Under the pieces are notes generated by a model. That model was not told the DNA's origin, did no database searches, and saw only the letters and a list, made by a program, of their open reading frames with translations. 64,000 nucleotides of DNA from Nitrospirota bacterium (GTDB taxonomy: Bacteria; Nitrospirota; Thermodesulfovibrionia; Thermodesulfovibrionales; JdFR-88), in NCBI GenBank assembly GCA_021789555.1, contig JAJYJK010000003.1:64756-128755 (forward strand), read 5' to 3'. Positions 8,997 to 24,104 of this stretch are shown here, piece after piece; position 1 is the stretch's first letter, and each line of letters starts with the position of its first letter. The position numbers and the translations under genes are program-made.

Positions 8997-9021
8997 AACC
9001 CTCTCCCTCAGGGAGAGGGTT
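8997..9021. repeat. Short dispersed hairpin repeat, family A, copy
   Basis: A perfect 11-bp stem, AACCCTCTCCC (8997-9007) with GGGAGAGGGTT (9011-9021), just before the ribosome site of the next gene. Identical arms occur at 13996-14021 and 38389-38415. Confidence 0.7.
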
Positions 9022-9034
9022 GAGAGAGGGGTTT

Positions 9035-9583
9035 ATGCCAAAAAAGAAACGCGCCTTGCCGCAGCCGCCCGGAAGGAGGGGTTTCGCCGCCGGCGAAGGC
9101 CCGAAAAAAGAGGGGCTCATGTTTGACGAGCTTCAGGAGGCGATGGCCGGGGGGCAAAAGAGTCTGGAGGAGTTCATGAAGAAAAACATCCCGGAGGGTG
9201 AATACTCAAGACGGCTGACCGAGATGATGATGGGGATGTCGGGCATCCCCGTTGCGAAGGGCAAAGGAGGCGAGGCCGCGCCCGAGGGGACGGAGTCTCC
9301 TGAAACTGCGCAGATGAAGGTGCCGGAGGACATCCTTCACGCCGCACATGAAGGCGACGTGCAGACGCTCAAAAACCTCCTGGCGCGGCAGCAGGGGAAA
9401 TCCGAAGTCTCAAAAGGGCCGGAGGGGCCGGAGGAGTCCGAGGACAAACAGTCGTTAATGGAAAAAGAGATAATGGACAGTCTCTATGAGATCAGTGTGG
9501 ACAATGGGATCTCGATGGACTGGATTATCCAGAGGGCGCTGAAACTCTACATCAGGAAATACCGCGACACCGGGCAATTGTAA
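9035..9583 (+). CDS. Hypothetical protein with ribbon-helix-helix-like C-terminus
   Basis: A hydrophilic protein of 182 residues. The N-terminus is basic (PKKKRALPQPPGRRG), and the middle is rich in Gly, Glu and Lys with repeated GPEGPEE-like runs. The C-terminal 45 residues (MEKEIMDSLYEISVDNGISM then an amphipathic helix) resemble a short DNA- or protein-binding helical module. I recognise no named family. The ATG at 9035 is preferred over the TTG at 9020 because GAGAGGGG lies just before it. A dispersed hairpin repeat abuts its ribosome site. Confidence 0.5.
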   Translation: MPKKKRALPQPPGRRGFAAGEGPKKEGLMFDELQEAMAGGQKSLEEFMKKNIPEGEYSRRLTEMMMGMSGIPVAKGKGGEAAPEGTESPETAQMKVPEDILHAAHEGDVQTLKNLLARQQGKSEVSKGPEGPEESEDKQSLMEKEIMDSLYEISVDNGISMDWIIQRALKLYIRKYRDTGQL

Positions 9584-9718: not shown

Positions 9719-9755
9719 TTTTACACTCAATAAAATCTTTCAAGGAGGGGAAATC

Positions 9756-10295: not shown

Positions 10296-11489
10296 CTAGG
10301 GGCTTAGAAATTCCATGAACTGACGCTTTATCTCCAGGCGGTCAAGCGGGATGACCGGCGCCTGCCCATCACCGGGCAGATTATTGCCCGGCAAGGCCAG
10401 GGCGTGGATGAATAGGGGTCCGGAGAGGGCAGAGTGAGCGGAGGGGGCGTTTGCCCCCTCCTTCATTTCGAGCGACCGGAGGAGGTCCCTTTTGCCGGCC
10501 GCCTTGACCGTGTATCTGAACCCAAGTCCCCTGGCGGCCTCTTCCAGGTCGATGCAACGCGCGGCAAGCGTGGGCTGGTTGCCGGTAGAACCGTAGGCCC
10601 CGTTGTCGACGGCAAAGACGGTCAGGTTTTCCGGGGAGAGGCAGGCGGCGGTGGCGAGTGTGCCCGGGTTCATAAGCAGGCTTCCGTCACCGTCTATCAC
10701 GACGACCTCTTTTTTCGTCGCAAGCGCGACCCCAAGCCCGATCGGGGTCGCCATCCCCATGCTGCCCAGCATGTAGAAATTCGAGGGCCTGTGCCCTATC
10801 TGGTAAAGCTCCCTCGCGGGAAACCCAAGATTACAGACGACCGCCTTTGATTCCAGCGCGGGCCAGACCGCAGAGAGTATCTCGTATCTGGTAAGCCGGG
10901 GTTTTGCCTTTCCGTGCGCCCCGCGCGCCCCTCGCGGCATGACAGCCTTTGGCCTGCGGCCAAAATCAAAGACCGGCCGCCACGCGTTTTTATCTGCCCC
11001 CGCCGCTTCCCAGAGCGCGGGGCTAAGGAGGAAGGCATGGATTTTGTTTCCCCTGTAGACGCGTTCCAGCCTTCCGGGTATAAGGGCGAGGTCTTTTATT
11101 TTTTCGACCTGGGTAAAACCTATCCCCGCGCCCCGAAGTATTCCTGGCAGTTTTTCGCCCATCGGTTTTTGCGCGGCGATTTTTTCCTTGTACAGGCCCC
11201 TGTGGCTTGCAAATATTGCCAGGGGGAGCGAATAAAAACCGGTGAGCGACAGGAGCGCATTTATCATGTTCCCCACGCCTGAATTTTGAATGAACATGGC
11301 CGGTCTTTTTCCCGCAAGCGAGGCCCCGGCGCAGATGCCGACCCCCTCTTCCTCGCGTGTAAGCGGCACGTGGAAGAATTTCCGTGGCACCATTGCGATA
11401 AGGCGCTTTATCCTGTCGCAGGGCAGGCTGACGGTAAAATCCACTCCTTCTGCGGCCAGTATCTCGATCAGCTTGTCTTCAGCGAGCAC
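10296..11489 (-). CDS. comDE: Sulfopyruvate decarboxylase, alpha and beta subunits fused (ComDE)
   Basis: A protein of 397 residues, a thiamine-diphosphate enzyme that decarboxylates sulfopyruvate to sulfoacetaldehyde. Residues 1 to about 165 match the ComD (alpha) half, with the catalytic Glu in TREEEGVGICAGASLAG (E46-48). About 195-397 match the ComE (beta) half, with the cofactor motif GDGS (267-270) through VDNGAYGSTG (DN at 295-296). Phosphonopyruvate decarboxylase is a close relative and cannot be excluded by motif alone. The neighbour decides: the gene overlaps by 22 nt a cysteate-synthase-like gene, a pairing known from Methanosarcina coenzyme M synthesis. It is the last gene of the cluster. 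Confidence 0.8.
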   Translation of the reverse strand: MLAEDKLIEILAAEGVDFTVSLPCDRIKRLIAMVPRKFFHVPLTREEEGVGICAGASLAGKRPAMFIQNSGVGNMINALLSLTGFYSLPLAIFASHRGLYKEKIAAQKPMGEKLPGILRGAGIGFTQVEKIKDLALIPGRLERVYRGNKIHAFLLSPALWEAAGADKNAWRPVFDFGRRPKAVMPRGARGAHGKAKPRLTRYEILSAVWPALESKAVVCNLGFPARELYQIGHRPSNFYMLGSMGMATPIGLGVALATKKEVVVIDGDGSLLMNPGTLATAACLSPENLTVFAVDNGAYGSTGNQPTLAARCIDLEEAARGLGFRYTVKAAGKRDLLRSLEMKEGANAPSAHSALSGPLFIHALALPGNNLPGDGQAPVIPLDRLEIKRQFMEFLSP

Positions 11490-12724
11490 AGCAGTTCTTT
11501 TATCTCCGTGTCGGTTATTTTTTTTGATATGACCTGCGGGTCCACCCGGTACACCGGCCTGTCTCCAAGGAGCCGCCGTTCGCCGCCACCGGTGATATTC
11601 AGGAGCACCGGCTCGTCGCGGCGTATTTTTTTCTGCGCCACGGCCTGCCGGAGCGCGGCCGCGGCCACCCCGGCGGCCGGCACTATATCGATGCCCTCGG
11701 CGGCCTCGAACATCTCCATCGCGCGGTATACCTCATCGTTTTGGACCCCGTACATCGAGCCGCCAGTCGCCTCAAGGGCGTCGAAGACGCCCCCCTGGAC
11801 CCCGTATGCCGGATAACGGTTTGAAAGCACCCTGGTTGTTATCTCGCCTATGAGGGCGGGGTCCAGGTCCTCCTCGAAGATTTCCCGGCTTTTCTTCCAG
11901 TAGGCCTTCGCCATCGGGGCAAAAGGCAGGTTTTGCGCGAGGTGCAAGGCGGGCAGCCTGCCGCCGAACCTGCCGTCGCCCAAAAACCTTTCGGCCATCT
12001 CCCATGCGGCGATGGCCCCGGCCCCGCTGCCCACGGCCTGAAAATAATGCCGCGGGAGTTTTTTCATGCCGGCCACGGCCTCCAGAAGGGCAATCCCAAG
12101 CCCGTCTCTTTTGGCGACGTTCTTTACCCCGCCCTCGAAGGGCATGCCCGAAAGCAGCGATATCCGCCTCGCGGCGGCTATCGAGTCCGAATAGTCGCCG
12201 TCAGAGAGGGCAATCGTCGGGGCGGAGGGGCTTTCCTCCAGGTTCCACATCTCGCCGAGGCACATCGTGGGCACTATTATAACAGCCTGAAAGCCGGAGA
12301 CCGACGCAAGATGCGTAAAGGCCCTCGCCGTGTTGCCCGCCGAGGCCACGACAAGCCCCTCTATCTCGTTTTCCATCGCGTTTGCGATGACCGTGGCGGC
12401 TTCGAACTCCTTGAAGGTGCATGTCTGAAGCAGCGCACCCCTTTCGGGCCAGTATCCGCAAAAAACGATGTAAAGCTCCTCCAGGCCGAGCTTCCCGGCA
12501 AACCCCTCCGACCGGAACACGACAGGGGAGGGCTGCGGGAAGGCCTCTTTGTGGACCGGCAGCCAGTTTGAAAATCTCCAGATGCCCTCTGCCGGTTTTT
12601 CCCTGAATTTTTTCTCCTTGTACCTTGTTACGAGAAGGGCGTTCGCGCAGTGCTCGCAAAAGGCGCAGTAGGCGTTTTCAAGCTCTTTCCCGCATTTCCG
12701 GCACATGATGGCAAAATGGCTCAT
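11468..12724 (-). CDS. Cysteate synthase-like PLP enzyme (threonine synthase family)
   Basis: A protein of 418 residues. An N-terminal Cys cluster (CRKCG, CAFCEHC, residues 8-26) is typical of threonine-synthase-like proteins. The PLP lysine is probably K105 in TFKEFEA, followed by the ASAGNTARA substrate/cofactor loop (128-136), and VGSGAGAIAAWE is the phosphate-binding loop. Threonine synthase is unlikely given the partner comDE. In Methanosarcina, cysteate synthase of this family makes L-cysteate from phosphoserine and sulfite for coenzyme M. The start overlaps the HdrD-like stop (ATGA) and the end overlaps comDE by 22 nt, so the three are tightly coupled. An aminotransferase to form sulfopyruvate is not encoded nearby. 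Confidence 0.72.
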   Translation of the reverse strand: MSHFAIMCRKCGKELENAYCAFCEHCANALLVTRYKEKKFREKPAEGIWRFSNWLPVHKEAFPQPSPVVFRSEGFAGKLGLEELYIVFCGYWPERGALLQTCTFKEFEAATVIANAMENEIEGLVVASAGNTARAFTHLASVSGFQAVIIVPTMCLGEMWNLEESPSAPTIALSDGDYSDSIAAARRISLLSGMPFEGGVKNVAKRDGLGIALLEAVAGMKKLPRHYFQAVGSGAGAIAAWEMAERFLGDGRFGGRLPALHLAQNLPFAPMAKAYWKKSREIFEEDLDPALIGEITTRVLSNRYPAYGVQGGVFDALEATGGSMYGVQNDEVYRAMEMFEAAEGIDIVPAAGVAAAALRQAVAQKKIRRDEPVLLNITGGGERRLLGDRPVYRVDPQVISKKITDTEIKELLCSLKTS

Positions 12725-13959
12725 ATCACCCCCGACAGAAGCTCCATTATATCGACCAATTCAAGCTGCCTTTCATGCCCCTCTATTTCCCCGTATCCAG
12801 ACAGTTTATCGTATCCGGACAGGGCCTCGCCCACCTTCGAATAACAGGCCGGACAACTGAGCACCAGCTTTTGCGCCCCTTTTTGGCGGGCCTCGTCAAT
12901 CGCGAGCCTTGCGATGGCGATGGCGTTGTCGTGAAAGACCTTCCTCGCGGCCCCCCCCGCCCCGCAGCAGCGCGACTCCGCCCCGTGCCTGTCGAACTCA
13001 AGGAGTTTCGCCCCCGGGATGCGGCGCAGTATCGCCCTCGGCTCTTCCGTGACGCCCACCCCGCGGGAGAGATAGCAGGGGTCGTGATAGATTAACCTTT
13101 CCTCGATGCCCCGGTTTATAATGAGCTTTCCCCGATTGAGCGCGTCCGCGACATATTGAGTAATGTGCCTTATCCTGAAGGGGAGTTTCGCCCCGAAGAA
13201 CGAGGGCCAGTCCCTCGCCATCATATTGACGCAGCAGGGACACGAGCAAACCAGCGTCTCGACCCCCTTTCGGACGTAGGCGACAACCAGCCTCTTTACC
13301 AGCTCCTCAAGCAGTTCGAACTGGCCTGTTATGAAGAGCGGGAAACCGCAGCAGACCTCCTCTTCCGCATCCAGCATCGTAAAGGGCCCGCCGATCTTGC
13401 CCAGCACCTCTATGTCGCCTCTCACCATCGGCTGCGCCTCATAGGCGCCGGTGCATCCGGCATAATAGCCGAGTTTCGCTTTCCCGGCCACCCTCACCCC
13501 GGCGGGGAACCAGGGGGAAAACCTCTCCGCGGCCGGCCTGTCATATGGGTTGCCTGTCCTGCTTACAGCGCCCGGAGTTTCCCGCTGGCTGCCGATAGGG
13601 CCAAGCCCCCGCCGGACCATCTCGCGCCTGAGCATCGGCCAGAGCCTCTGGGTGAAGATGCCGACGGTGCAGGTTTGACCGCAGGCCCCGCAGGTCGTGC
13701 ACTCGTAGACGGCCTTTGCAAAATCCTCAAGGAGCCTCTGGTCTATCCTTCCCGCGCCGAAAAACCTCGATTTGAGTCCCTCCGTGCCCGCGATGAATTC
13801 CCTGAAGAGGCGGATTTTCTCCGGCGGGGATATCGATTTGTCCGATGTCACCTCCTGCACGGGACAGTATTTCAGGCATTCCCCGCACCGGGTGCAGGCG
13901 TCAAGCTCCACGAGCTGGCCTGCCGACAGGCACCGGGTATAAGATTCTTTATTTGCCAT
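12721..13959 (-). CDS. hdrD: Heterodisulfide reductase subunit D-like iron-sulfur protein
   Basis: A protein of 412 residues. Two [4Fe-4S] ferredoxin motifs come first (C22/25/28/32 and C87/90/93/97), then two complete CCG domains. CCG1 has C169, CC203-204 and C240xxC243; CCG2 has C295, CC331-332 and C369xxC372. In methanogen HdrD such CCG sites bind the noncubane [4Fe-4S] clusters that cleave the CoM-S-S-CoB disulfide. Related proteins (GlpC, LutA, DsrK) share parts of this architecture. The ATG at 13959 is chosen; the open frame continues into a hairpin repeat that would give an unlikely extension. A HdrE-like membrane partner lies just upstream, and the cysteate synthase start overlaps its stop. 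Confidence 0.75.
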   Translation of the reverse strand: MANKESYTRCLSAGQLVELDACTRCGECLKYCPVQEVTSDKSISPPEKIRLFREFIAGTEGLKSRFFGAGRIDQRLLEDFAKAVYECTTCGACGQTCTVGIFTQRLWPMLRREMVRRGLGPIGSQRETPGAVSRTGNPYDRPAAERFSPWFPAGVRVAGKAKLGYYAGCTGAYEAQPMVRGDIEVLGKIGGPFTMLDAEEEVCCGFPLFITGQFELLEELVKRLVVAYVRKGVETLVCSCPCCVNMMARDWPSFFGAKLPFRIRHITQYVADALNRGKLIINRGIEERLIYHDPCYLSRGVGVTEEPRAILRRIPGAKLLEFDRHGAESRCCGAGGAARKVFHDNAIAIARLAIDEARQKGAQKLVLSCPACYSKVGEALSGYDKLSGYGEIEGHERQLELVDIMELLSGVI

Positions 13960-13984
13960 AAAAACTAAACACCCTGAAAATAAG

Positions 13985-14021
13985 CGCCCTCTCCCAACCC
14001 TCTCCCTTAAGGGAGAGGGTT
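13985..14021 (-). repeat. Short dispersed hairpin repeat, family A, inside the hdrE-hdrD gap
   Basis: The 11-bp arms AACCCTCTCCC (13996-14006) and GGGAGAGGGTT (14011-14021), with a TTAA loop, are identical to those at 8997-9021 and 38389-38415. An extra CCCTCTCCC block at 13987-13995 matches the trailing GGGAG-GGG of the 38 kb copy. It fills part of the 140-nt gap between hdrE and hdrD. Confidence 0.7.
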
Positions 14022-14099
14022 TCACTAAAGGCAAAGACCGCGTTTTTTTTATGTAGGGTCCCGCCAGGGCGGGATTGCTGCGCCCGATCCTTTATCTTT

Positions 14100-14819
14100 T
14101 CAGTCATGCAAAAATCTTCCGAGCGTTTTTTCGCGTTTCTTAGCCTCATAGAGCGTAAAAGGCGCGGCAAAGATGTGCGTGGGCAGGTAAACAAGCAGTA
14201 TGAGCACAAGGCCGAAATGGGCCAGAAACGGCAATCCGTCGGGCAGCACCCAGGGCGTAGCGCCGTCGGCCAGGGCTGAGGGTTTTAAACTAAGCACGCT
14301 CATCATGTACTGCTTCACGGCCACGACGTTCGGATGAAAGACCGTGCTCATGAGGATCCCCAGCCCGCTTATGAGCAAAAGGGCGCCGAGAAGGAAATAG
14401 TTATATGTAAACGCATACCTGCCCCTGCCGGCGACCGCCTTTACAGCAATTATGTAAACGAGAGAAAAGGGCATGACATACCCGGCAATCCGGCCTAAAA
14501 ACTGCACCTGCCAGATGAACTCCGGCACGGGCGTAAGAAAGTATCTCAGGTGCCGCAGGAGCACCAGGACGAAACTCATGTGGAAGACCCACTCGCCAAT
14601 CCAGAGCGCCGGGTTCACTCTTAGCAGCCTTCTTAGAAAAAACGCCTCCAGCGCCACGGCCGCAAATGTCTGACAGGCCGGGAATTTCGCCTCCTCCAGG
14701 GTGCTTCCATCCGCCACCGTGCGCCACGGCCTCTTGAACCAGAGCGCCGCATGCATAAATACCCTCAGTAAAAAAATTGTAAAGGCGGCATAGGCTGCAA
14801 CGGCCAGGAGTTTTCCCAT
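14100..14819 (-). CDS. hdrE: HdrE/NarI-type membrane cytochrome b subunit
   Basis: A protein of 239 residues with five hydrophobic segments, as in the NarI/DsrM/HdrE family. Paired histidines sit in two segments, H80 and H90 in the second and H201 and H215 in the last, suitable for two b-type haems. Such subunits pass electrons between membrane quinone (or methanophenazine) and a cytoplasmic CCG-domain partner. The HdrD-like gene follows downstream after a repeat-bearing gap, and folD ends 14 nt upstream. Whether it oxidises quinol to reduce a disulfide, or runs in reverse, cannot be decided from sequence. Confidence 0.75.
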   Translation of the reverse strand: MGKLLAVAAYAAFTIFLLRVFMHAALWFKRPWRTVADGSTLEEAKFPACQTFAAVALEAFFLRRLLRVNPALWIGEWVFHMSFVLVLLRHLRYFLTPVPEFIWQVQFLGRIAGYVMPFSLVYIIAVKAVAGRGRYAFTYNYFLLGALLLISGLGILMSTVFHPNVVAVKQYMMSVLSLKPSALADGATPWVLPDGLPFLAHFGLVLILLVYLPTHIFAAPFTLYEAKKREKTLGRFLHD

Positions 14820-14833
14820 CTGGACGTGACCCC

Positions 14834-15700
14834 CTACGGGCTTGCGCTTCTCTTTGCCGATTTAAGGGTATTTTCAAGGAGCATCGCTATCGTCACCGGC
14901 CCCACGCCCCCCGGCACGGGGGTCAGATATCCGGCCCTCCCCCTGACACTGCCGAAATCGACGTCTCCCACGATGCCGCCGTCAGCCAGCACGTTTATGC
15001 CTATGTCGACCACCGCCGCCCCCTCTTTTATCATCGGGCCCCCTATCAGGTCCTTCACGCCCGCAGCCGAGCAAATTATATCCGCGGCACGGGTGAAGAA
15101 GGCCAGGTCGCCTGTCTGCCTGTGGCAGACCGTCACCGTGGCCTCCCTTGCAAGCAGCATGTTCGCCAGGGGTTTTCCCACAGCCAGGCTCTTGCCCACC
15201 ACGACCGCGTTTTTACCCCTGATGTTTATCCCGTAGTGGTCCAGCAGTCTGATGACCCCGAAGGGGGTGCAGGGGATGAAGAAGGTGGGCTCGTCCGCCT
15301 GGAGCCTGCCTATGGAGATGGCCCCAAGGCCGTCCACGTCCTTGCCCGGCGATATGGCGTTTACGACCCGCCTGGTGTCGAGCCTCGCGGGAAACGGCAT
15401 AAGCGGCAAAACCCCGCTTATTTGTTCATCCCGGTTGACTGAATTCACGATATTAAGGATCTCGCCCATTGACGCGTGCTCCGGCAGGACATACTCGTAA
15501 ATGGTTACGCCCACCTTTCTTGCCGCCTTTTTTGTGGCGAGGAAATACTGTTTCGAGGCCGGGTTATCCCCCACCAGCAGCAGGGCAAGCCCGACTTCGA
15601 TGCCGAAATTCCCCAACTCCCGCACGCCGGCCGCCACTGTCTCTTTTATCTCCTCGGCGAGCCTTTTGCCGTCCATTACGATGGCCTTGCCTGAAACCAT
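14834..15700 (-). CDS. folD: FolD-like methylene-tetrahydrofolate dehydrogenase/cyclohydrolase, divergent active site
   Basis: A protein of 288 residues, the usual FolD length. It keeps KDVDG (120-124), the IPCTPFG motif and the NAD(P)-binding VVVGKSLAVGKP (167-177). The canonical YxxxKxKA catalytic motif instead reads YFLATKKAA (52-60), so the position of the catalytic Lys is Thr56. The usual VQLPLP segment reads PLMPFP, so the active-site Gln is Leu100. I chose the ATG at 15700 because GGAGG lies 5 nt before it. In the cluster it would interconvert methylene and methenyl/formyl carriers, but cyclohydrolase activity is doubtful. It may act on another pterin or only as a dehydrogenase. Confidence 0.8.
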   Translation of the reverse strand: MVSGKAIVMDGKRLAEEIKETVAAGVRELGNFGIEVGLALLLVGDNPASKQYFLATKKAARKVGVTIYEYVLPEHASMGEILNIVNSVNRDEQISGVLPLMPFPARLDTRRVVNAISPGKDVDGLGAISIGRLQADEPTFFIPCTPFGVIRLLDHYGINIRGKNAVVVGKSLAVGKPLANMLLAREATVTVCHRQTGDLAFFTRAADIICSAAGVKDLIGGPMIKEGAAVVDIGINVLADGGIVGDVDFGSVRGRAGYLTPVPGGVGPVTIAMLLENTLKSAKRSASP

Positions 15701-15730
15701 CTCTTCCTCCGCCCAAAAGACGCTTTCATA

Positions 15731-15750
15731 ATTCCCGCGCAGGCGGGAAT
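15731..15750. repeat. Small palindrome upstream of folD
   Basis: ATTCCCGC-GCAG-GCGGGAAT, a perfect 8-bp stem with a 4-nt loop, in the gap before folD. Similar GGCGGGAAT arms occur in the palindromic insertion in nuoM. Confidence 0.5.
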
Positions 15751-15774
15751 CCACTTCTAGAGATAAGTCTTCGC

Positions 15775-16089
15775 TCACTCCTCGAATTTCATGCTTACCT
15801 CACGCGGCAGGCAAAGACCCGATTCGACCTCGACCGCCTTTATTACCGCGCTTGGCACCGGGCAGGCCACGTGCCTCAGATGACCGGCGGCGGCCTTGTA
15901 GACTGGGTTATTGAGGAAATTCGTAAAGGCCACGCTCATCATCTCGAGGGCGGCTATCTCCCGGCTGAAATTCCTCACCATCTCGCAGTCGGTCTCTATC
16001 CGGACCGATATGTTTTTCCCTTTTTCCTTCTCCACCGTTATGCGGGAGATAAAACCGCATACGCCCGAGTTCACGATAAGCCCCGTCAT
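15775..16089 (-). CDS. Small conserved protein of the DUF6951 type
   Basis: A protein of 104 residues. It begins MTGLIVNSGVCGF and keeps several Cys (GVCGF, ETDCEM, HVACPVP, SGLCLP). I associate this pattern with small uncharacterised proteins found near corrinoid methyltransferase and activase genes; that assignment is from memory of the family and not checked. The ATG at 16089 has GAGGTG 6 nt upstream; a GTG at 16098 is the alternative. It lies between the activase gene and folD in the same direction. Four conserved-looking Cys suggest metal or cofactor binding. Confidence 0.6.
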   Translation of the reverse strand: MTGLIVNSGVCGFISRITVEKEKGKNISVRIETDCEMVRNFSREIAALEMMSVAFTNFLNNPVYKAAAGHLRHVACPVPSAVIKAVEVESGLCLPREVSMKFEE

Positions 16090-16140
16090 CTCAAACACCT
16101 CATCTCAGAAACCGTCCTGTCCTATTTATTATCCCACGGG

Positions 16141-16205
16141 ATTTTAATTTATGGCTCTTTTGAAATTCATGTGGGTGCTTTTCTGCCGTCCTATTAATGG
16201 AAAGA
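16141..16205 (-). repeat. Dispersed repeat pair, copy 1
   Basis: Within the about 250-nt gap of the cluster between the activase and the small DUF gene. The complement of 16155-16174 is identical over 20 bp to 46327-46346, and flanking sequence (ATTAAT, GGCAG, A-run) also aligns. The rest of the gap (16206-16337) has further short inverted pairs (GGAATGAG/CTCATTC) and no gene that I can support. Confidence 0.55.
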
Positions 16206-16337
16206 AGCCTTACAGGGCGGTTTGTTTGCGGAATGAGACCTTGCGGGGGTTCAATATCACTCATTCGGCAAACCCTCGGAGCTTGGGGTGGAAACCCAAA
16301 GCGAGAATGAGCCCGAACGCCATGGCCCGCCTCCCGC

Positions 16338-18350
16338 TCATCCATTTATCACCACCGGGGAGGCGGCCTTTTCGAGCAGTTTCTTTAGATTCGGGAAGCG
16401 GTCTTTCATATGGGGCAGGTGCATGGCCTGCATGAACTCCCGCTCGAAATTCGGCTCGACGGCTATCTCCACGAACTCCACCCACCTGGCCCTCTGCTCC
16501 GCCTCGTCCCTCTTTGCGGTATTTAAAAGGGCCATCCTCGCGCCGTCACCGGCCGCGTTGCCCACCGCGTAGACCTTGTCGATTTCGCAGTCGGGGAACA
16601 TCCCCAGCGTCATCGCCGATTCCTTGTCTATGTAGCTGCCGAAGGCCCCGGCCAGTATGACCTTGTCCAGTTTCTCGATGCCCATCTTCTGCATCATGAG
16701 CTTTGCCCCGGCGTAGAGCGCCCCCTTGGCAAGCTGGAGGGCCCGCACGTCCGCCTGGTTTATGGTTATGTCGGCCCCGATGGAGGTCTCATCCGCCCAG
16801 GCAAGCACGTATTCCGGTTTGCCGTCGTGGTCTCTTCTTATCCGGGGGCTCTTTGCCGTCATATCGAATTTTCCGGACTTGTCTATGATCCCCGCTTTGT
16901 ACATCTCGGCTATGGCGTCTATGATGCCGGAGCCGCAGATGCCCTTGGCGTCTATCTTCTCCACGTGCGTATGCCAGTCCTCCTTGCCGATGACCTTGTA
17001 GAGGGGTTCTTTCGTCGCCGGCTCTATCTTCACCTTCTCAATCGCGCCCGGGGCGGCGCGCATGCCCATCTTTATCTGTGCGCCCTCGAAGGCCGGCCCG
17101 GTCGCGCAGGACGTGGAGCAGACCCGCCGCCTGTTTCCCAGCAGCAGCTCGCCGTTTGTGCCTATGTCTATGATGAGGACGGTTTCATCCATGTTGTAAG
17201 GCTCCTCGGCTATCAGCACGCCCACGTTGTCGGCCCCCACGAAGCCGGCCTCTATCGGCAGCACGTAGATATAGGAGCCCCGGTTTATCTTTATCCCAAG
17301 GTCCCTGGCCTTTATGTCGATGCCGTGCTGGATGGCCGGGATGAAGGGGGAGCGCCCTATGTACTCCGGGTTGAAGCCGAGGAATATATGGTGCATGGCT
17401 GTATTGAAGACGATTGTCAGGTCGACTATAGCGTCCCCGCTTCCGCCCGCCTTTTTTCCCGATAAATCCCCGTTTGCCCTTAAATCTTTTGTCGCCTTGG
17501 CGATTATCTCGTTGAGGCCGTCGATTATCGTCTTTTGCATCTTCCGGACGCCGCCCTCGTTCGTCATTGCATAAGTGATACGGGACATCACGTCCTCGCC
17601 GTATGGGACCTGCGGGTTCATCATCGACTCTGTGTTTACGACCTTTCCCGTAGCCAGGTCGGTAAGGTAGCCCACGACCGTGGTCGTCCCCACGTCGACG
17701 GCAAGCCCGTAGGCGGTCTCCACGAAGCCGGGCTCCACCTTTATTATTTCACGCCCCTTCCAGACCGTGACGGTGACGCCCCAGTTGCCCTTTCTGATTG
17801 CGTCCTGGAGGTCCCTGAGGACTGTAAAATCTATGGAGAGGCCGTCGAGTCCGGCCTGCCTGCGGAGCGCCTCACGGAGGGCTTCATGTCCCCGAAGCCT
17901 CTCAAAATCCCCGGTGATGGGTTCCGCGAGCGAGGGTTTCTGCATCTCCACGAAATATTTCTTTACCGCGGGGTCGATGGCTATGGTGAGCTCCTTTGCC
18001 GCTTTCCTTACAATCTGCTTGCCGGCCCTGGATTTCTCCGGGACGAATATCTTGACGTCGCCCTGCACCTGTGCGGCGCAGGCGAGCCTCATGGCGGGGC
18101 CGTCGGAGGGTTTCAGGAATTTCATCTCCTGACCGGTAAGCGGGGACAGGTGATTCATCCTCGAGTCCATCGCGTCTTTTTCAAAAAATCCCTCCTCCAC
18201 CCTCACCTTGCACTTGCCGCAGGTGCCCTTGCCCCCGCAGATCGACTCTATGTCGACCCCGAGGTTGCGGGCGGCATCCAGAAGGTTCGTGCCGTCCTCA
18301 ACCTCGCCCCTCCTGCCGGAGGGCTGGAAAATCACTCTATGCCTCGTCAT
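16338..18350 (-). CDS. Reductive activator of corrinoid enzymes (RACE), ferredoxin plus ASKHA domain
   Basis: A protein of 670 residues. The N-terminus carries a plant-type [2Fe-2S] ferredoxin domain (C38, C44, C47, C91 in CGGKGTCGKC and LACAA). A linker follows, then an actin/Hsp70-like ATPase fold with phosphate loops VDVGTTTVVGY and IDIGTNGELLLGN and the late GAFGSYIDKESA motif. Such proteins reduce the inactive Co(II) form of corrinoid proteins to Co(I) using ATP. The start at 18350 has GGAGG 11 nt upstream; an ATG at 18368 is possible. Its presence next to the corrinoid protein supports a working corrinoid methyl transfer system. Confidence 0.88.
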   Translation of the reverse strand: MTRHRVIFQPSGRRGEVEDGTNLLDAARNLGVDIESICGGKGTCGKCKVRVEEGFFEKDAMDSRMNHLSPLTGQEMKFLKPSDGPAMRLACAAQVQGDVKIFVPEKSRAGKQIVRKAAKELTIAIDPAVKKYFVEMQKPSLAEPITGDFERLRGHEALREALRRQAGLDGLSIDFTVLRDLQDAIRKGNWGVTVTVWKGREIIKVEPGFVETAYGLAVDVGTTTVVGYLTDLATGKVVNTESMMNPQVPYGEDVMSRITYAMTNEGGVRKMQKTIIDGLNEIIAKATKDLRANGDLSGKKAGGSGDAIVDLTIVFNTAMHHIFLGFNPEYIGRSPFIPAIQHGIDIKARDLGIKINRGSYIYVLPIEAGFVGADNVGVLIAEEPYNMDETVLIIDIGTNGELLLGNRRRVCSTSCATGPAFEGAQIKMGMRAAPGAIEKVKIEPATKEPLYKVIGKEDWHTHVEKIDAKGICGSGIIDAIAEMYKAGIIDKSGKFDMTAKSPRIRRDHDGKPEYVLAWADETSIGADITINQADVRALQLAKGALYAGAKLMMQKMGIEKLDKVILAGAFGSYIDKESAMTLGMFPDCEIDKVYAVGNAAGDGARMALLNTAKRDEAEQRARWVEFVEIAVEPNFEREFMQAMHLPHMKDRFPNLKKLLEKAASPVVING

Positions 18351-18381
18351 TCTCTGGGATTCCTCCATAAATCGTTTTCTC

Positions 18382-19032
18382 TCAATTCTTGAAAGGGGCC
18401 GTATCGTTTCTGCCGTAAGGGCAGATGTTGATGCAGAGGCCGCAATTGGGCTTGCCGCTGGTGGCCCTGGCGCCTTTTTTCCAGGACGCGCATTTTTTCG
18501 TCTTGACAAGCTCCGCATAGGCGACACCCTGCGACCAGTCGTTTCCCGTGATCGCGTGCGAGGGGCAGAACTCCATGCACAGCGTGCACTCCCCGCACAT
18601 GCTGCCGGTGACCGGCGTGCCGGTCGCAAGCGGCGCGTCCGTAAGCACGGTCGCAAACGACAGCCGCGGGCCGTATACAGGGTTTATCAGAAGTCCGTTT
18701 CTGCCTATCCAGCCCAGTCCGGAGAGGGTCGCCGCCATCTTGTGCGTAATGAGCGGATAGAGCCTCGATATGAAGGTGCCGTTCGTCCTGTCGGAGTCGG
18801 GCGGGATGCATAAATACCTGTAGCCCCCTTCCCTCAGCCGGCCGGCGGCCCTCTTTTCGAGCGCCACGAGGAGGCTGACCGTCCGCTCATTGAGGTTTTT
18901 GACGACGCCTATGGAGATCGCCCGCCCGAGGTGCGCGATGTCCCCGGTTGCGATGTCCTCCACACAGGCAAACCCCACCACGGCGGCCCCTGCGCCGACA
19001 AGCTCCGCCCTCAGACCGGCATGAAAATCCAT
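18382..19032 (-). CDS. QueG-like protein with two [4Fe-4S] clusters
   Basis: A protein of 216 residues. The C-terminal half has two ferredoxin motifs, C146/149/152 with C156 and C197/200 with C204 plus C181. The middle GLGWIGRNGLLINPVYG motif resembles epoxyqueuosine reductase (QueG) and the reductive-dehalogenase-like family. It is shorter than QueG at the N-terminus. Fe-S proteins of this kind recur beside corrinoid methyltransferases and could donate electrons to the corrinoid activase. It starts 8 nt after the corrinoid protein stop and ends 31 nt before the activase gene. A role in tRNA modification is less likely in this setting. Confidence 0.7.
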   Translation of the reverse strand: MDFHAGLRAELVGAGAAVVGFACVEDIATGDIAHLGRAISIGVVKNLNERTVSLLVALEKRAAGRLREGGYRYLCIPPDSDRTNGTFISRLYPLITHKMAATLSGLGWIGRNGLLINPVYGPRLSFATVLTDAPLATGTPVTGSMCGECTLCMEFCPSHAITGNDWSQGVAYAELVKTKKCASWKKGARATSGKPNCGLCINICPYGRNDTAPFKN

Positions 19033-19040
19033 TGCAGTTT

Positions 19041-19733
19041 TCAGCCCCGTTTCTTCGCCTCTGCCTCTTCCTTCATCTTCTTAAGGGAGCTCACCATGTT
19101 GATGGCGTCTTTCAGGGCGTTGTTTGCGTCCTTGGCGTACCCGTCGGCGCCCCATTTGTCGGCTATGTCCGAGGAGACCGGCGCGCCGCCTATCATGATC
19201 CTGACGTTCGGGTTTTTCGCCTTGAGATCGCTTATGACCTTCTTCATGCCGACCATCGTGGTGGTCATCATCGCCGAGAGGCAGACGAGGTCGGAGTCCG
19301 TGCGGAGCTGCTCCTCCACGAATTTATCGAGGGGCACGTCCCGGCCAAGGTCGTATACCGTGAAGCCCGCCACGTCGAACATCATCTTCACTATGTTCTT
19401 GCCTATGTCGTGGACGTCCCCCTCGACGGTGCCGATGACGACGGACCCCTTTACCCCCAGATCGAGCTGTCTCACGTGGGGTTTCAATATATCGAGGCCC
19501 GCGTAAAGGGCGTCGGCCGACATCAGCAGCTCGGGCACGAAATACTCCTGGGCCTCGAAGAGCCTGCCCACCTCTTCCATCCCGCTTACGAGGCCGTTGA
19601 AGATGGCGTCATTGGCGTCCATCCCGAGCGCGATGACCTCGTTGGCGGCCTCCTTGGCCCCGTCCTCGTCGTACTGGATGACGGCGTTTTTCAGCCTGCC
19701 TAGCAGCTCCTGCCTTTTTTCTTCCGTAGCCAT
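19041..19733 (-). CDS. Corrinoid (cobamide-binding) methyl carrier protein
   Basis: A protein of 230 residues of the MtaC/MtmC/MttC type. An N-terminal helical cap domain (about 1-90) precedes a Rossmann-like B12 domain. The axial-ligand motif is GDVHDIG (H108, with D106 and G111), followed by the SAMMTTT and IGGAPV loops (153 and 182). It would carry a methyl group on cobalt between a methyl donor enzyme and acceptor methyltransferases. It lies 9 nt downstream of an MtaA-like gene and 8 nt upstream of the QueG-like gene. No substrate-specific MtaB, MttB or MtmB partner is in the window. Confidence 0.9.
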   Translation of the reverse strand: MATEEKRQELLGRLKNAVIQYDEDGAKEAANEVIALGMDANDAIFNGLVSGMEEVGRLFEAQEYFVPELLMSADALYAGLDILKPHVRQLDLGVKGSVVIGTVEGDVHDIGKNIVKMMFDVAGFTVYDLGRDVPLDKFVEEQLRTDSDLVCLSAMMTTTMVGMKKVISDLKAKNPNVRIMIGGAPVSSDIADKWGADGYAKDANNALKDAINMVSSLKKMKEEAEAKKRG

Positions 19734-19742
19734 TTTTTCACT

Positions 19743-20780
19743 CTACCTCCTGTAATTTATAACTTCATCCATCATGGCCTTTATGTTTTCCGCCGGCACG
19801 GTGGGCCATATGTCGCAGCCGGGCCACACGGCGTCCACCCCGTCGTCGATGCACTTTCTGACCGTCTGGCGCACCGTCTCCACCGTGCCGGCCACAAGGA
19901 CATTATAGGGGTCGTAGTTGCCGAAGAGCAGGGCGCTGCCGATCTTCTTCCTCGTCTCGGCGACGTCGTTTTTCTGGTCCGCGCTTATCGCGCTTGCGCC
20001 CGACTCCGTCATGAAGACGGCGATGTCGTTTGTCTTCCCGCAGATGTGCAGCACCGTGTGCGCCTTTATCCGGCTGAATATCTTCTGAAGATGGGGCAGT
20101 ATGAGGTTTTTGAAGACCCTGGGACTGAGGACGTCCGAGGTGGCCCCCATCTCCCTCACCGTGATATAGTCCGCCCCGGCGTCCTCGAGCTCTGCGGCGT
20201 AGAGTATTATCGCCTCGGCCAGTGTCTCAAGGAGCCTGCCCACTTTCTCCGGCTTCTTGAAGGAGAGTTTCAGGAGATCGTTGAGCTCCATTATCTGCCC
20301 TGCGAGGGTGAAGGGGCCAAGCACATAGGAGCCGATTGCGACCTCGCCCCCGATGTCCGCCTTCAGGAATTTTATCGCCTCTTTCAGGAGCGGGATTCGC
20401 CCTCTTTTTGTGAAATCCGCCGGGATGTCCACGGTCTCCATCTCGGCCTCGTCATGGATTATTTTTTTTCTTATGGTCGGGTAGAGGATGTCCTCCAGAT
20501 GGGCGTAGACGTTTATCTCGCAGCCCAGGGCCTCCGCCTCCACGCAGAGGTCGAAGGGGACGACCCCGCACTCAAAGCCGGTGAGCTTGTAGGTGGCCGC
20601 GGCGGCGTCCGCCATCATCTTTGCGTTTGAATGCAAGGCGGCGAATTTATAGCCGAACTCCTTTAGCCCGGCCGTGGTGACATTGCCCATGCCGCTGAAG
20701 CAGGGCGGCCTGTCCACTTCGGCCCCCGAAAACAGTTTCAGGACCCTTTCCCTCGGTGTCATTGTAGTTGTCTCTGCCAT
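19743..20780 (-). CDS. Methylcobamide:CoM methyltransferase-like protein (MtaA/UroD family), paralogue 1
   Basis: A protein of 345 residues with the uroporphyrinogen decarboxylase fold used by MtaA, MtbA and CmuA. The zinc site of the CoM methyltransferases is complete: H245 and C247 in VLHICGKTND, and C322 in WPGCDIWPTVPAENI. In MtaA/MtbA this zinc binds and activates the thiol of coenzyme M for methylation by methyl-Co(III). True HemE lacks this Cys pattern. Some bacterial relatives instead demethylate O-methyl compounds, so the methyl acceptor is not proven. It lies between the MtrH-like and corrinoid genes with gaps of 22 and 9 nt. Confidence 0.82.
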   Translation of the reverse strand: MAETTTMTPRERVLKLFSGAEVDRPPCFSGMGNVTTAGLKEFGYKFAALHSNAKMMADAAAATYKLTGFECGVVPFDLCVEAEALGCEINVYAHLEDILYPTIRKKIIHDEAEMETVDIPADFTKRGRIPLLKEAIKFLKADIGGEVAIGSYVLGPFTLAGQIMELNDLLKLSFKKPEKVGRLLETLAEAIILYAAELEDAGADYITVREMGATSDVLSPRVFKNLILPHLQKIFSRIKAHTVLHICGKTNDIAVFMTESGASAISADQKNDVAETRKKIGSALLFGNYDPYNVLVAGTVETVRQTVRKCIDDGVDAVWPGCDIWPTVPAENIKAMMDEVINYRR

Positions 20781-20802
20781 TAGTGCTCCTTTTTATTCTT
20801 TA

Positions 20803-21750
20803 TTACTTTCTGGCCCCTCCGGCGAGGAGCTTTTCCACGAAATCCGGGAAGAATTTCCTTATGGGCAGGTCCCCGTTTTCGGGGATACTGTTTGTCTCCG
20901 TGAATACGAGTGTCGCAAGCAGTATGTGGGCCGTGGCCACCGCCGGGAATATCCTGGGCGCCGTGACGATAGGCCCGTAAAAATTGAAGTCGCTCCAGAG
21001 GACCGAAGACATGCCCTGCGCCACCGCGTCCATCGTCCTGAAACCCTCGATCCCCCAGATGTCCTTCGACGCCTTCCACATATGGGTGCCGTTGGAGTAC
21101 GCCCCTCCGCAAGGCAGCCCGAGTTTTTCCTTTATCATCCGGTTTGCAACGAGCGAAAAGGACGTCGAGGGCAGGTTCATGACGGAGGTGTCCACCATGA
21201 CGGTCTCGAAGGCGCCCGCGCCCTCGGAGAGCATGGACTCAAGGGCCCTCAGCCTGCCCGCCGGGCCCTGGTCCTTGTCGTCGAAGGCCTGCACCACCAC
21301 ATGCCGGATGCCGAGGTCCTTGAGCTTGTTTATCTGTCCCCTGATGTCCTTGTCCCAGGGGGTGATGCTGTTATAGAGGAACCGGTCCTGAACGCCCAGC
21401 CTGGCGATATATTCCGTCGCCTTCGCCCTCTGCTCGGCCACCCACATGTCTATGCCGAAGGGCATGTCGGAGGTTTCGAGGAAGAAATCTATATATATCT
21501 TTGCCTCCTCCGGGGTGTTGGCCACCATCGCCACCATCCCGGGGATGCCGGTGGTCCTCGCGAGTTCCTCCTGCCGCCTTATCAGCTCCCTTGCCCTCTG
21601 TCTGTCGAAATTGCCTTTCCTGTCGGCAAGTATGCGGTCCTTGTTGTGGAACATGGATGCGATGAGCAGGGGCGGGTTTTCACCGGCGGGCCCGCCTATC
21701 GTTATGCCGCCTATCCTGGAGGTCTTTTGCTTGACGGAAAAAGCGAACAT
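20803..21750 (-). CDS. MtrH-like methyltransferase (methyl-pterin:corrinoid)
   Basis: A protein of 315 residues of the MtrH family (pterin-binding TIM-barrel). It begins with a strand and GGITIGGPAGENPPLLIAS and the MFHNKDRILAD loop. In methanogens MtrH moves methyl between tetrahydromethanopterin and a corrinoid. In bacteria, relatives such as MtgA move it from a corrinoid to tetrahydrofolate. With a FolD-like gene in the cluster, a folate-type carrier is the simpler guess. AAAGGAGA precedes the ATG. It follows a possible 55-residue gene by 18 nt and precedes the MtaA-like gene by 22 nt. Confidence 0.85.
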   Translation of the reverse strand: MFAFSVKQKTSRIGGITIGGPAGENPPLLIASMFHNKDRILADRKGNFDRQRARELIRRQEELARTTGIPGMVAMVANTPEEAKIYIDFFLETSDMPFGIDMWVAEQRAKATEYIARLGVQDRFLYNSITPWDKDIRGQINKLKDLGIRHVVVQAFDDKDQGPAGRLRALESMLSEGAGAFETVMVDTSVMNLPSTSFSLVANRMIKEKLGLPCGGAYSNGTHMWKASKDIWGIEGFRTMDAVAQGMSSVLWSDFNFYGPIVTAPRIFPAVATAHILLATLVFTETNSIPENGDLPIRKFFPDFVEKLLAGGARK

Positions 21751-21768
21751 TTATATGGAATCTCCTTT

Positions 21769-21936
21769 TTAAAAAATCTCCTCGTCTTTATGCGGCCGGT
21801 CCCCCGACGCGCCCCCCAGGGGACCAGTCCCGTTGGCCAGCCTCCCCCATCCGATCAGTATCCCGGCCCCCTGGAACTGGTTACCGAAGGGCGGCGCGCC
21901 CGCCTGGAAGCTGGGAAACGGGCGCGCAGTTGCCAT
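21769..21936 (-). CDS. Possible small Gly/Pro-rich protein (55 residues)
   Basis: An ATG-initiated frame of 55 codons filling the gap between the CMD-like and MtrH-like genes. It starts MATARPFPSFQAGAPPFGNQ, has a glycine-rich centre (GAGILIGWGRLANGTGPLGG) and ends DEEIF. The third codon positions are mostly G or C as in the neighbours. Its stop lies 18 nt before the MtrH start, and the spacing fits an operon member. The ribosome site is weak (A-rich). I do not recognise the protein; it could be a spurious frame. Confidence 0.4.
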   Translation of the reverse strand: MATARPFPSFQAGAPPFGNQFQGAGILIGWGRLANGTGPLGGASGDRPHKDEEIF

Positions 21937-21951
21937 TGCTGTTTTTTCTGA

Positions 21952-22461
21952 TCAAAACACCCCGTGGTCGAACCTGGGCTGGGGCAGGTATTCCCACTTC
22001 TCGCCCTTCCTGTACTTGGCCTCGATGTCCAGGCATTTTAGCGCGTACTCGAACGCATAGGGTATTCCGGGGCCGCCCGGCACAAAGCCCGCGAGTATCA
22101 TGCCCACGGAGGCCGCCTCGAAGATCTCGCCGGTGGTGGCCCCTGCGTTTATCGCGGGGATGACGTGGATTATGCATCGGGGCGAGCAGTAACCGACCCC
22201 GCCGGCCATGAACATCAGCTCCTTGTGCTTCCTGGAGAGCGCGCCGTCGCCGAATATGCTCTCATAGAAATCGGCAAACGTCCTTCCCGGCTCCGGCGTG
22301 ACGGTGTTTATTATCTGGAACATCCGCGGCACGAAGCCGCACTTCTGCTTCATGTACGCGTTTACTTCCTCTACCGTCATCTTCTTCGTCTCTGTCGCCA
22401 TTTTACCTTCTCCTTCTTGTCCTGCCGTTTTTGAAAACAGTGCGGACAGTTTTTTAAACAT
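21952..22461 (-). CDS. Carboxymuconolactone decarboxylase/AhpD-like protein
   Basis: A protein of 169 residues if started at 22461, or 149 from the internal ATG at 22401. Both starts have purine-rich sites (GGGGAGG and AAGGAG). The fold is the CMD helical domain, and the redox motif reads GYCSPRCIIHV, a C-x3-C pair followed by His rather than the usual CxxC-x2-H. Family members act as alkylhydroperoxidase partners or as small thiol-redox enzymes. In this cluster it may manage a thiol or disulfide carrier; that is inference. It lies between the second MtaA-like gene and the MtrH-like gene. Confidence 0.75.
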   Translation of the reverse strand: MFKKLSALFSKTAGQEGEGKMATETKKMTVEEVNAYMKQKCGFVPRMFQIINTVTPEPGRTFADFYESIFGDGALSRKHKELMFMAGGVGYCSPRCIIHVIPAINAGATTGEIFEAASVGMILAGFVPGGPGIPYAFEYALKCLDIEAKYRKGEKWEYLPQPRFDHGVF

Positions 22462-22572
22462 ACGCTTTAAACCTCCCCTGATATCTGAAACAGACGGTCC
22501 GGTTTCCTCCGCCGCTTCCTCCCCCGGAGACGGGCGTTATCACCTCCCCCCTTTTGAAAAGACTTTATATTG

Positions 22573-23604
22573 CTAATACCTCCAGTCCCGGGCCACCTGG
22601 ATGAATTTTTGTATGTTCTCGTACGGGACGGTGGGCGGGATGTCGCAGCCCGGCATGAGGACGAACCCCCCGTCGGCGCCGGCGGTCCGGATGGTTTCCC
22701 TGCAGGCCTCCTCCACGTCCTGCACGCTGCCGTTCAGCATTATCTTCACCGGGTCCACGTTGCCCCCGAAGCACATCTTTCCGTGGAGGACCTCCTTGGC
22801 CTTCCGGATGTCGGTCTTGTGGTCGAGGCTTATGCAGCTCGCCCCTGTGGCCGGGAAGAGGTCCAGCCGGTCCGTTGTGTTGCCGCAGATATGGACCAGC
22901 GTGTGGGCGCCTTTGCCCTTTGCCCAGTCCGTGAACTTCTTCAGGTAGGGGAGCGCGAACCGCTCGAACTGCTTTTTGGATATGAGGTCTCCGGAGGCGG
23001 TCGGGTCGGCCAGGCTTATGACCTCGAGCGTGCCGTCATCGACGAGAGGCCCATAGAGGTGCATAAGCAGGCCGGTGGCGAAATCGACGACCTTCTCGAC
23101 AAGGGCCGGCTTTTTGAAGGTGGCCTTCATCATCGTCTCCTCGCCCACGAGGCGCGCGCCGAGGGTGAAGGGCCCCCAGGCCGTAAGCGTCACGACGTAC
23201 TCGTCCCCTATCCTCGATTTGGCGGCCCTGCAGGCCTTCTTTGTTGTCTCGATGACCCGGTCGGAATCTATGCTGCGGATGTCCAGTTTCTGGAGGTCCT
23301 CTTCGGAGGCCGCCAGATGGGCCTCGAGATCCGGCGCGCCCATCTCCCGGAACTTCATGGAGCCCCCCAGGGCCGCCGCGGCATGGAAGTTGTTATAGCC
23401 CGAGCCCGCGTAGACGACGTCGCACAGGAGTTTGCCGCTCATCGCAACCAGCATGTCGGCCATCCGGCCTTCATCCTCCGAAAGCTCCTTGAACGTGGAG
23501 CCAAAATTCTTTATGCTCCACATGCCGGCCCCGAAGAGCGTGACCGGGACCCGTGAGGCCTTGCCGCCTTCAAATGCCTTTAATATCGTCTGCCGTGGTG
23601 TCAT
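22573..23604 (-). CDS. Methylcobamide:CoM methyltransferase-like protein (MtaA/UroD family), paralogue 2
   Basis: A protein of 343 residues of the same UroD-fold family as the gene at 19743-20780 but clearly diverged. It keeps the zinc triad H238, C240 (LVHICGNTTDR) and C320 (LMPGCDIPPTVPYEN). The N-terminal half differs (FGAGMWSIKNFG; VVYAGSGYNN), suggesting another methyl donor or acceptor. The two paralogues may split the roles of substrate demethylase and CoM methylase, as the MtvB- and MtaA-like members do elsewhere. It is the second gene of the cluster, 34 nt after the receiver-like gene. Confidence 0.8.
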   Translation of the reverse strand: MTPRQTILKAFEGGKASRVPVTLFGAGMWSIKNFGSTFKELSEDEGRMADMLVAMSGKLLCDVVYAGSGYNNFHAAAALGGSMKFREMGAPDLEAHLAASEEDLQKLDIRSIDSDRVIETTKKACRAAKSRIGDEYVVTLTAWGPFTLGARLVGEETMMKATFKKPALVEKVVDFATGLLMHLYGPLVDDGTLEVISLADPTASGDLISKKQFERFALPYLKKFTDWAKGKGAHTLVHICGNTTDRLDLFPATGASCISLDHKTDIRKAKEVLHGKMCFGGNVDPVKIMLNGSVQDVEEACRETIRTAGADGGFVLMPGCDIPPTVPYENIQKFIQVARDWRY

Positions 23605-23638
23605 GACGCCCCCTTGTTGATTTTTTTATTTTCGCCCG

Positions 23639-23965
23639 CTATAAAATTGCGTGGATGGCCTGCTTGAACTCCTCGAGGTCGACCGGCGCTTCTATGTTGA
23701 GGGCCTCCGCAGCGCAGCAGGACTTGCCCGTCACCAACACCGGCAGCCCCGGAGAGACCACCCTTATTATCCGGACCGCGTCCTCCGCCTGAAGCCCAAA
23801 CGGCCCAGCCTCGATTATTACGCCATCGTATTTTTTTTCCATTATCATGTGGACGGCCTGGGAGAGATGCTCCGCCATATCCACGGTAAAACCCTCATCA
23901 CGAAGCATGCCGTAAAGGCTTTTGATGAGCATGGGATCGTGCGTGCAGAAAAGGAGCTTTCTCAT
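23639..23965 (-). CDS. Degenerate response-regulator receiver domain protein
   Basis: A protein of 108 residues, a stand-alone receiver fold. The first strand is KLLFCTHDP, with a single acidic residue instead of the usual DD pair, and strand 3 is YDGVIIEAGPF, with Glu in place of the phospho-accepting Asp. Strands 4 and 5 end in LVTGKS and APVD. It therefore probably cannot be phosphorylated normally and may act by protein contact. It is the first gene of the cluster and starts 3 nt after the predicted sigma-54 transcription start, without a ribosome site. The open frame extends upstream to 24085, but that stretch covers the promoter and palindromes. Confidence 0.65.
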   Translation of the reverse strand: MRKLLFCTHDPMLIKSLYGMLRDEGFTVDMAEHLSQAVHMIMEKKYDGVIIEAGPFGLQAEDAVRIIRVVSPGLPVLVTGKSCCAAEALNIEAPVDLEEFKQAIHAIL

Positions 23966-23978
23966 ACACCATAAGAAA

Positions 23979-23994
23979 TGCAATTGCCGTGCCA
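23979..23994 (-). promoter_or_regulatory. Sigma-54 (-24/-12) promoter of the methyltransferase cluster
   Basis: On the minus strand, TGGCACG-GCAA-TTGCA, a complete match to the sigma-54 consensus TGGCACG-N4-TTGCW. Counting from the GG at -24 puts +1 near 23968, three bases before the ATG of the first gene. Confidence 0.65.
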
Positions 23995-24033
23995 TTGACG
24001 CCGGCAGTGTTAGTGCCCGTAATATCAGGAAAT

Positions 24034-24104
24034 TTTCGGCCCCCCGGCCGAAAGGGAGAGACAGGGGTCGGGTAAAATTACCCAAGGGTGGGGAATTTTA
24101 CCCC
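24034..24104. promoter_or_regulatory. Paired palindromes upstream of the sigma-54 promoter (candidate enhancer sites)
   Basis: TTTCGGCC-CCCC-GGCCGAAA at 24034-24053; GGGTAA-AA-TTACCC at 24070-24083; and a near copy, GGGGAATTTTACCCC, at 24090-24104. The last two are about 20 bp apart centre to centre, close to two helical turns. Together they lie about 75-130 bp before the predicted start, the usual place for enhancer-binding activators. An alternative reading is RNA hairpins. Confidence 0.45.

Follow-up and report, generated by a model that had tools for sequence, protein, structure and literature searches.

Coenzyme M (CoM) has so far been known from archaeal methane and alkane metabolism and from the alkene metabolism of a few bacteria. 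Three routes to the cofactor have been listed, one of them bacterial (PMC12068725). This Xanthobacter-type route has phosphoenolpyruvate as its starting compound, and its enzymes differ (PMC12068725) from those of the Methanosarcina-type (type 2) route, in which cysteate synthase (CysS) is encoded beside the fused sulfopyruvate decarboxylase ComDE. Here we describe a gene cluster in a 64,000-nucleotide stretch (the window) of contig JAJYJK010000003.1 from Nitrospirota bacterium assembly GCA_021789555.1, which joins cysS and comDE to hdrD-like, hdrE-like and corrinoid methyltransferase genes. The host is a 2.85 Mb metagenome-assembled genome (MAG), 98.8% complete, with the window in contig C40, and the cluster runs on the minus strand from window position 24085 down to 10296. 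We read it, with a probability of about 0.58, as encoding a CoM-type thiol pathway together with soluble corrinoid methyl transfer in anaerobic bacteria free of methyl-CoM reductase (MCR).

The genes are arranged, from 5′ to 3′, as a receiver-like (REC-like) gene, mtaA1, cmd, mtrH, mtaA2, a corrinoid protein gene, a gene for a QueG/reductive-dehalogenase-like Fe-S protein, RACo, DUF6951, folD, hdrE, hdrD, cysS and comDE (Table 1), with neighbours that overlap slightly or lie up to about 240 bases apart. At the 3′ block, hdrD and cysS overlap by 4 bases and cysS and comDE by 22. Every gene named in an earlier first-pass annotation of this DNA is present, on one strand and mostly overlapping or closely spaced as it had stated, but its list omitted the CMD-fold protein, the QueG-like Fe-S protein and DUF6951. 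It had also called the host bacterial, in agreement with the Nitrospirota MAG and with the relatives found via cysS, nearly all Nitrospirae or Nitrospirota and some titled Thermodesulfovibrionales or Thermodesulfovibrionia; judged by these relatives, the host belongs to Thermodesulfovibrionales. Relative to Methanosarcina-type CoM biosynthesis, the locus shares cysteate synthase beside fused ComDE and differs in its bacterial host, in the lack of ComF (COG1900), whose place is taken by hdrD, and in the lack of MCR; with the Xanthobacter type it has in common that a CoM-type compound is apparently produced by a bacterium.

The identity of the two sulfonate enzymes carries this reading. CysS scores 467 bits against TIGR03844 (curated cut-off 325) and is 39-48% identical to archaeal enzymes, against 20-26% for threonine-synthase-like proteins. 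A tree was built from 23 bacterial sequences, 20 cysteate synthases of archaea and, as outgroup, 11 threonine-synthase-like proteins; in it the bacterial group (support 85) is sister to the archaeal group (support 98), and both clades are jointly split from the outgroup with support 100; a misannotated threonine synthase is ruled out by tree and score. The alpha half of ComDE passes its model (TIGR03845, 182 bits, cut-off 148), while the beta half stays just under (TIGR03846, 198 bits, cut-off 221), as do two relatives; an archaeal (Methanoculleus) ComDE used as a control passes the beta model narrowly at 226 bits. The score against phosphonopyruvate decarboxylase (TIGR03297) is 186 bits, under the cut-off of 312. 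The window's ComDE is 37-44% identical to archaeal fused ComDE, and comDE adjoins cysS in all 30 archaeal control loci, as it does here; model scores, identity and neighbourhood together point to a sulfopyruvate decarboxylase. The first-pass annotation had proposed both enzymes, and with them a Methanosarcina-type route, which is upheld up to sulfoacetaldehyde. A CysS homolog 41% identical to the window's is found on a Streptomyces plasmid (L149, NZ_CP108366.1, 9001-10149) with no other cluster gene nearby and probably serves another sulfonate pathway.

Conservation was surveyed in 176 genomes of the order Thermodesulfovibrionales, covering 13 families. A cysS above the curated cut-off occurs in 58 of them, from nine families, and 33 loci (the long loci) include 9.5 kb or more of the DNA upstream of it. 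Collinearity of 11-13 of 13 genes is seen in 25 long loci; seven of the other eight hold 10-12 genes with order flags, which we attribute to paralog cross-matches or to contigs that break off within mtaA1 or cmd. Each core gene was detected in 28-32 of the 33, so the cluster conservation in relatives on which the earlier proposal had hinged is borne out. The GC content of the cluster (58.9%) matches that of the remaining window (57.9%) and thus gives no sign of misassembly; recent transfer or misassembly was rejected on this agreement and on the gene order shared by relatives. One copy comes from a MAG with the title Thermoleophilia (Actinomycetota; L077, JACUUL010000001.1), where cysS and its neighbours are Nitrospirota-like and may reflect transfer or misbinning. 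Another, titled "uncultured bacterium" (L078), has match coordinates that fit genome G004 of the same order and is probably no outlier from it.

The absence of MCR, noted earlier for the window, holds for the complete genome and throughout the order: McrA/AcrA (PF02745) was found neither in the host genome nor in any of the 176 genomes, with positive controls, and the same searches reject an MCR hidden elsewhere in the genome.

The known last enzyme of the route is likewise missing. ComF (MMP16, COG1900, PF01837) is absent from the host genome, in which TIGR03287 gave ferredoxin-domain matches only, from 175 of the 176 genomes and from all 58 cysS carriers (controls positive), and searches rejected a ComF or L-ASST hidden elsewhere in the genome. 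In archaeal controls a PF01837 gene adjoins cysS-comDE in 27 of 30 loci, at the position that hdrD occupies in the bacterial loci. The sole PF01837 genome of the order is G174, in which no cysS reaches the cut-off; on its contig C95, two COG1900 copies lie close together (L100-L102).

On sequence evidence, the genes establish the route only as far as sulfoacetaldehyde. The earlier claim that the cluster makes CoM therefore holds for the steps up to that compound, while no carrier has a member of the known family of CoM synthase. CoM could nevertheless be formed, because a Methanosarcina acetivorans mutant deleted for MMP16 grows without added CoM if sulfide is present (PMC12068725); a slow reaction between sulfoacetaldehyde and sulfide is also reported (PMC12068725). 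CoM, made through an unknown last step, appears the likeliest product of the route, since thiol-type MtaA and HdrDE share the unit. The lack of the ComF family in all carriers would equally suit a sulfonate branch ending in another sulfonate or a small thiol, on which both MtaA-like enzymes would then act; cysteate synthase homologs without a nearby comDE do exist, the Streptomyces plasmid protein among them, and one of the conserved genes next to the cluster encodes an SsuA (sulfonate)-like protein. We regard a product other than CoM as unlikely: HdrDE and thiol-type MtaA in a conserved unit suggest a redox-active thiol, and the sulfide-dependent growth of the MMP16 mutant leaves room for CoM without ComF.

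DUF6951, a small protein of the Pfam family of that name encoded between RACo and folD, may have a part in the formation of the thiol. Its structure was modelled with a pLDDT of 91, and the best PDB matches returned by Foldseek are nearly all IscU, SufU, SufE and CsdE (best E 0.008, TM 0.54). The invariant residues C14, C38, H76 and C79 lie at places along the strands and helices that match the Cys, Cys and His-Cys positions which we take to be the ligands of IscU. Sequence methods gave no link between DUF6951 and IscU or SufE, and comparisons with plasmids and with an approximate IscU sequence gave no match. Judged by its predicted fold, DUF6951 may carry sulfur or act as an Fe-S scaffold, possibly as a new family of such proteins. 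That a new type of CoM synthase has replaced ComF, with DUF6951 as sulfur carrier and HdrED as electron source, giving a complete MCR-free CoM methyl metabolism, is a tentative and rather doubtful extension. As a general CoM synthase DUF6951 is unlikely, being absent from 61 Methanomicrobia-type (Methanoculleus class) genomes, 42 of which have cysteate synthase; M. acetivorans, used as a control, has one copy.

On the methyltransferase side, the zinc site separates two classes in the superfamily, His-Cys-Cys being typical of S- and Se-methyltransferases and carboxylate or other substitutions of O-demethylases (PMC10418091). MtaA1 and MtaA2 both retain HxC...C, with His-Cys-Cys invariant in 19 mtaA1 and 37 mtaA2 sequences, in line with the two intact zinc sites reported in the first pass. 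MtaA2 is 33% identical to the MtaA of solved structure 4ay7, close to the roughly 30% identity seen among known CoM methyltransferases (PMC10418091). It stays below the equivalog cut-offs for MtaA (254 against 400 bits) and MtbA (191 against 600 bits) and would thus be like MtaA in kind though not filed as MtaA. The pair shares the UroD family and zinc ligands of MtaA, MtbA and MtsA and differs from them in that two paralogs apparently share one corrinoid protein. Among relatives, mtaA1 falls into two subtypes, with identities to the window's gene of about 57-61% and 73-93%; this split does not track how the rest of the cluster has diverged and perhaps reflects two methyl substrates.

The remaining parts of the methyl branch belong to established families, as the earlier assignment of an MtrH-like methyltransferase, a corrinoid protein and an activase had it. 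MtrH scores 176 bits against PF02007, is the sole PF02007 match of the genome and has homologs of solved structure; MtrH-like methylcorrinoid:tetrahydrofolate enzymes are known (PMC8630106). Domain scores of the corrinoid protein, RACo and FolD lie far above their cut-offs, and the cobalamin-binding motif DVHDIGKN of the corrinoid protein is intact (H108). The QueG-like Fe-S protein is presumed to be the electron donor for corrinoid reactivation. The product of cmd is very highly conserved, with a mean column identity of 77%.

Two described systems contain much of this machinery. Mto/Odm O-demethylases likewise combine an MtrH-family folate or pterin methyltransferase, a corrinoid protein, a RACE-type activase and a UroD-family MT1 (PMC8630106), and an operon of this methoxydotrophic kind with unrelated neighbours could be imagined. 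Such an operon should have carboxylate or non-ligand zinc positions (PMC10418091), whereas all relatives of both proteins have the thiol-type His-Cys-Cys, and gene order ties the CoM genes and HdrDE, foreign to Mto/Odm, to the methyltransferases; an O-demethylase is hardly tenable here. Closer are the type 1 mlp clusters of Kountz and Balskus (PMC10418091), found mostly in non-methanogenic anaerobes, with several UroD-family His-Cys-Cys zinc methyltransferases, a corrinoid protein and an activase. By analogy, the locus could demethylate S- or Se-methyl compounds, the main flow leading from methyl sulfides or selenides to tetrahydrofolate and a CoM-like thiol being only an acceptor or redox aid. 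The described type 1 mlp clusters, however, lack a folate methyltransferase and show little synteny, and their paper makes no mention of MtrH, HdrD, cysteate, CoM synthesis or Hdr (PMC10418091), whereas here these genes are constant and in fixed order, which makes an mlp-like role quite unlikely.

HdrD retains two CCG domains and two 4Cys motifs, invariant in 52 sequences, and HdrE has four invariant histidines (H80, H90, H201, H215) in 33 sequences, which would allow it to bind heme b. Two CCG domains, two [4Fe-4S] motifs and a partner cytochrome b with conserved histidines are features shared with HdrDE and TfrB; the best NCBIfam match of HdrD is TfrB (CoM/CoB-linked), at 159 bits far below the cut-off of 385, and the cytochrome partner varies among relatives. 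HdrE was detected in 29 of the 33 long loci, and eight loci hold another b-type cytochrome family, several of them without a detected hdrE, which fits the passage of electrons to quinone. The proposed link of HdrDE to the quinone pool and complex I is a reasonable conjecture from its family and from the HdrE histidines. The tight hdrD-cysS-comDE sub-block, and an order that includes sulfate reducers (PMC9469722), would also accord with HdrDE and CoM serving sulfur redox, where CoM persulfide or disulfide would be the carrier as sulfur is oxidised or reduced and methyl transfer would come second; the methyltransferases, however, are as constant as the CoM genes, and we consider a sulfur redox system very improbable.

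If the cluster is a CoM-type pathway with corrinoid methyl transfer, CysS and ComDE would convert phosphoserine and sulfite through sulfopyruvate to sulfoacetaldehyde, from which an enzyme other than ComF, perhaps with DUF6951 or cellular sulfide, would form CoM. One corrinoid protein would be the methyl hub of three methyltransferases: MtrH would exchange its methyl group with tetrahydrofolate, MtaA2 with CoM, and MtaA1, with its thiol-type zinc site, with another compound that bears an S-methyl (or Se-methyl) group. The corrinoid would be re-reduced by RACo and the QueG-like protein, and HdrED would carry electrons between the CoM thiol or disulfide and quinone. Most likely, the net effect would be to supply the folate branch of the Wood-Ljungdahl pathway with methyl groups taken from methylated sulfur compounds, CoM serving as the methyl carrier in between or as thiol, though the flow might also run the other way; substrates, direction and identity of the thiol are what we infer from enzyme families and sites seen directly. 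Acetyl-CoA synthase (ACS) is encoded in the host genome, in a cluster apparently with carbon monoxide dehydrogenase, CFeSP-like subunits and an AcsE-like protein (names beyond CdhC follow our reading of the sequences). With ACS and Wood-Ljungdahl genes present, methyl-tetrahydrofolate should be a native intermediate with a use.

Several observations weigh against this scheme, the absence of PF01837 among them. ACS is near-universal in the order and not associated with cysS (53 of 58 carriers against 102 of 118 non-carriers, p = 0.46), so that a tie between the cluster and ACS was rejected. Locus L066 has cysS-comDE only and no methyltransferases, which implies that the sulfonate branch can exist on its own. 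Nothing in the cluster points to an S-methyl substrate. Finally, folD is present in only six of the 33 long loci and is altered. Alignment with 3p2o shows that the catalytic Lys and Gln, on which FolD activity depends, are replaced by Thr and Leu, and the altered positions are conserved in relatives. The divergent FolD had been recognised earlier; it probably does not work as a normal cyclohydrolase and is an optional, catalytically altered part, not a core step.

Every family in the cluster is known, and as far as we have searched, the combination and its host are new: searches of mostly open-access literature found neither a description of the cluster nor any mention of cysteate synthase or ComDE from this bacterial group. 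If the reading is correct, CoM would gain a third role as a general methyl or redox cofactor, beyond methane/alkane and alkene metabolism, and the cluster would point to an unknown CoM synthase and bear on whether CoM/Hdr chemistry predates methanogenesis or was borrowed from it. It also offers a testable function for uncultured, widespread subsurface bacteria related to sulfate reducers.

Table 1. Cluster genes from 5′ to 3′, followed by convergent neighbours (window coordinates).
Feature	Position	Strand	Basis
Small receiver-like (REC) protein, first gene	23639..24085	-	weak PF00072; open reading frame family 14
mtaA1, UroD/MtaA-family corrinoid methyltransferase	22573..23604	-	zinc site H238-x-C240...C320
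cmd, CMD/AhpD-fold protein	21952..22461	-	C92-SPR-C96-II-H99
mtrH-like methyl-tetrahydrofolate:corrinoid methyltransferase	20803..21750	-	PF02007
mtaA2, UroD/MtaA-family	19743..20780	-	zinc site H245-x-C247...C322
Corrinoid (B12) carrier protein	19041..19733	-	DVHDIGKN motif (H108)
QueG/reductive-dehalogenase-like double [4Fe-4S] protein	18382..19032	-	family match
RACo-type corrinoid reductive activase, N-terminal [2Fe-2S] domain	16338..18386	-	family match
DUF6951	15775..16098	-	predicted IscU/SufE-like fold; invariant C14, C38, H76, C79
FolD-like protein, catalytic Lys to Thr, Gln to Leu	14834..15694	-	alignment
HdrE-like b-type cytochrome	14100..14819	-	four invariant His (H80, H90, H201, H215)
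HdrD-like, two [4Fe-4S] motifs and two CCG domains	12721..13959	-	TfrB nearest NCBIfam model
Cysteate synthase cysS (pyridoxal phosphate)	11468..12724	-	TIGR03844 467 bits; tree
Fused ComDE, sulfopyruvate decarboxylase (thiamine pyrophosphate)	10296..11489	-	scores; conserved motifs GDGSLLMN and REEEG
187-aa protein without family match, convergent neighbour	9020..9583	+	conserved in 19 relatives
SsuA/NMT1-like protein, convergent neighbour	8025..8963	+	conserved in 15 relatives

The REC-like gene is kept upstream of mtaA1 in at least eight relatives, and its true start is probably near 23965. Promoter and Rfam scans of the locus gave nothing useful. The SsuA/NMT1-like neighbour has a sulfonate-binding fold; inspection of its N-terminus by eye found no obvious signal peptide, and the protein is apparently cytosolic. 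In the 187-aa neighbour the C-terminus, DSLYEISVDNGISMDWIIQRALKLYIRKYRDTGQL, is well kept. Directly convergent with comDE, at 9690-10280 (+), lies a gene for a small c-type cytochrome with four CxxCH motifs, and beyond the 5′ end of the cluster, at 24496-27507 (+), a 1003-aa fusion combines M1-peptidase-like, ChaN/Tiki heme-binding and PDZ domains.

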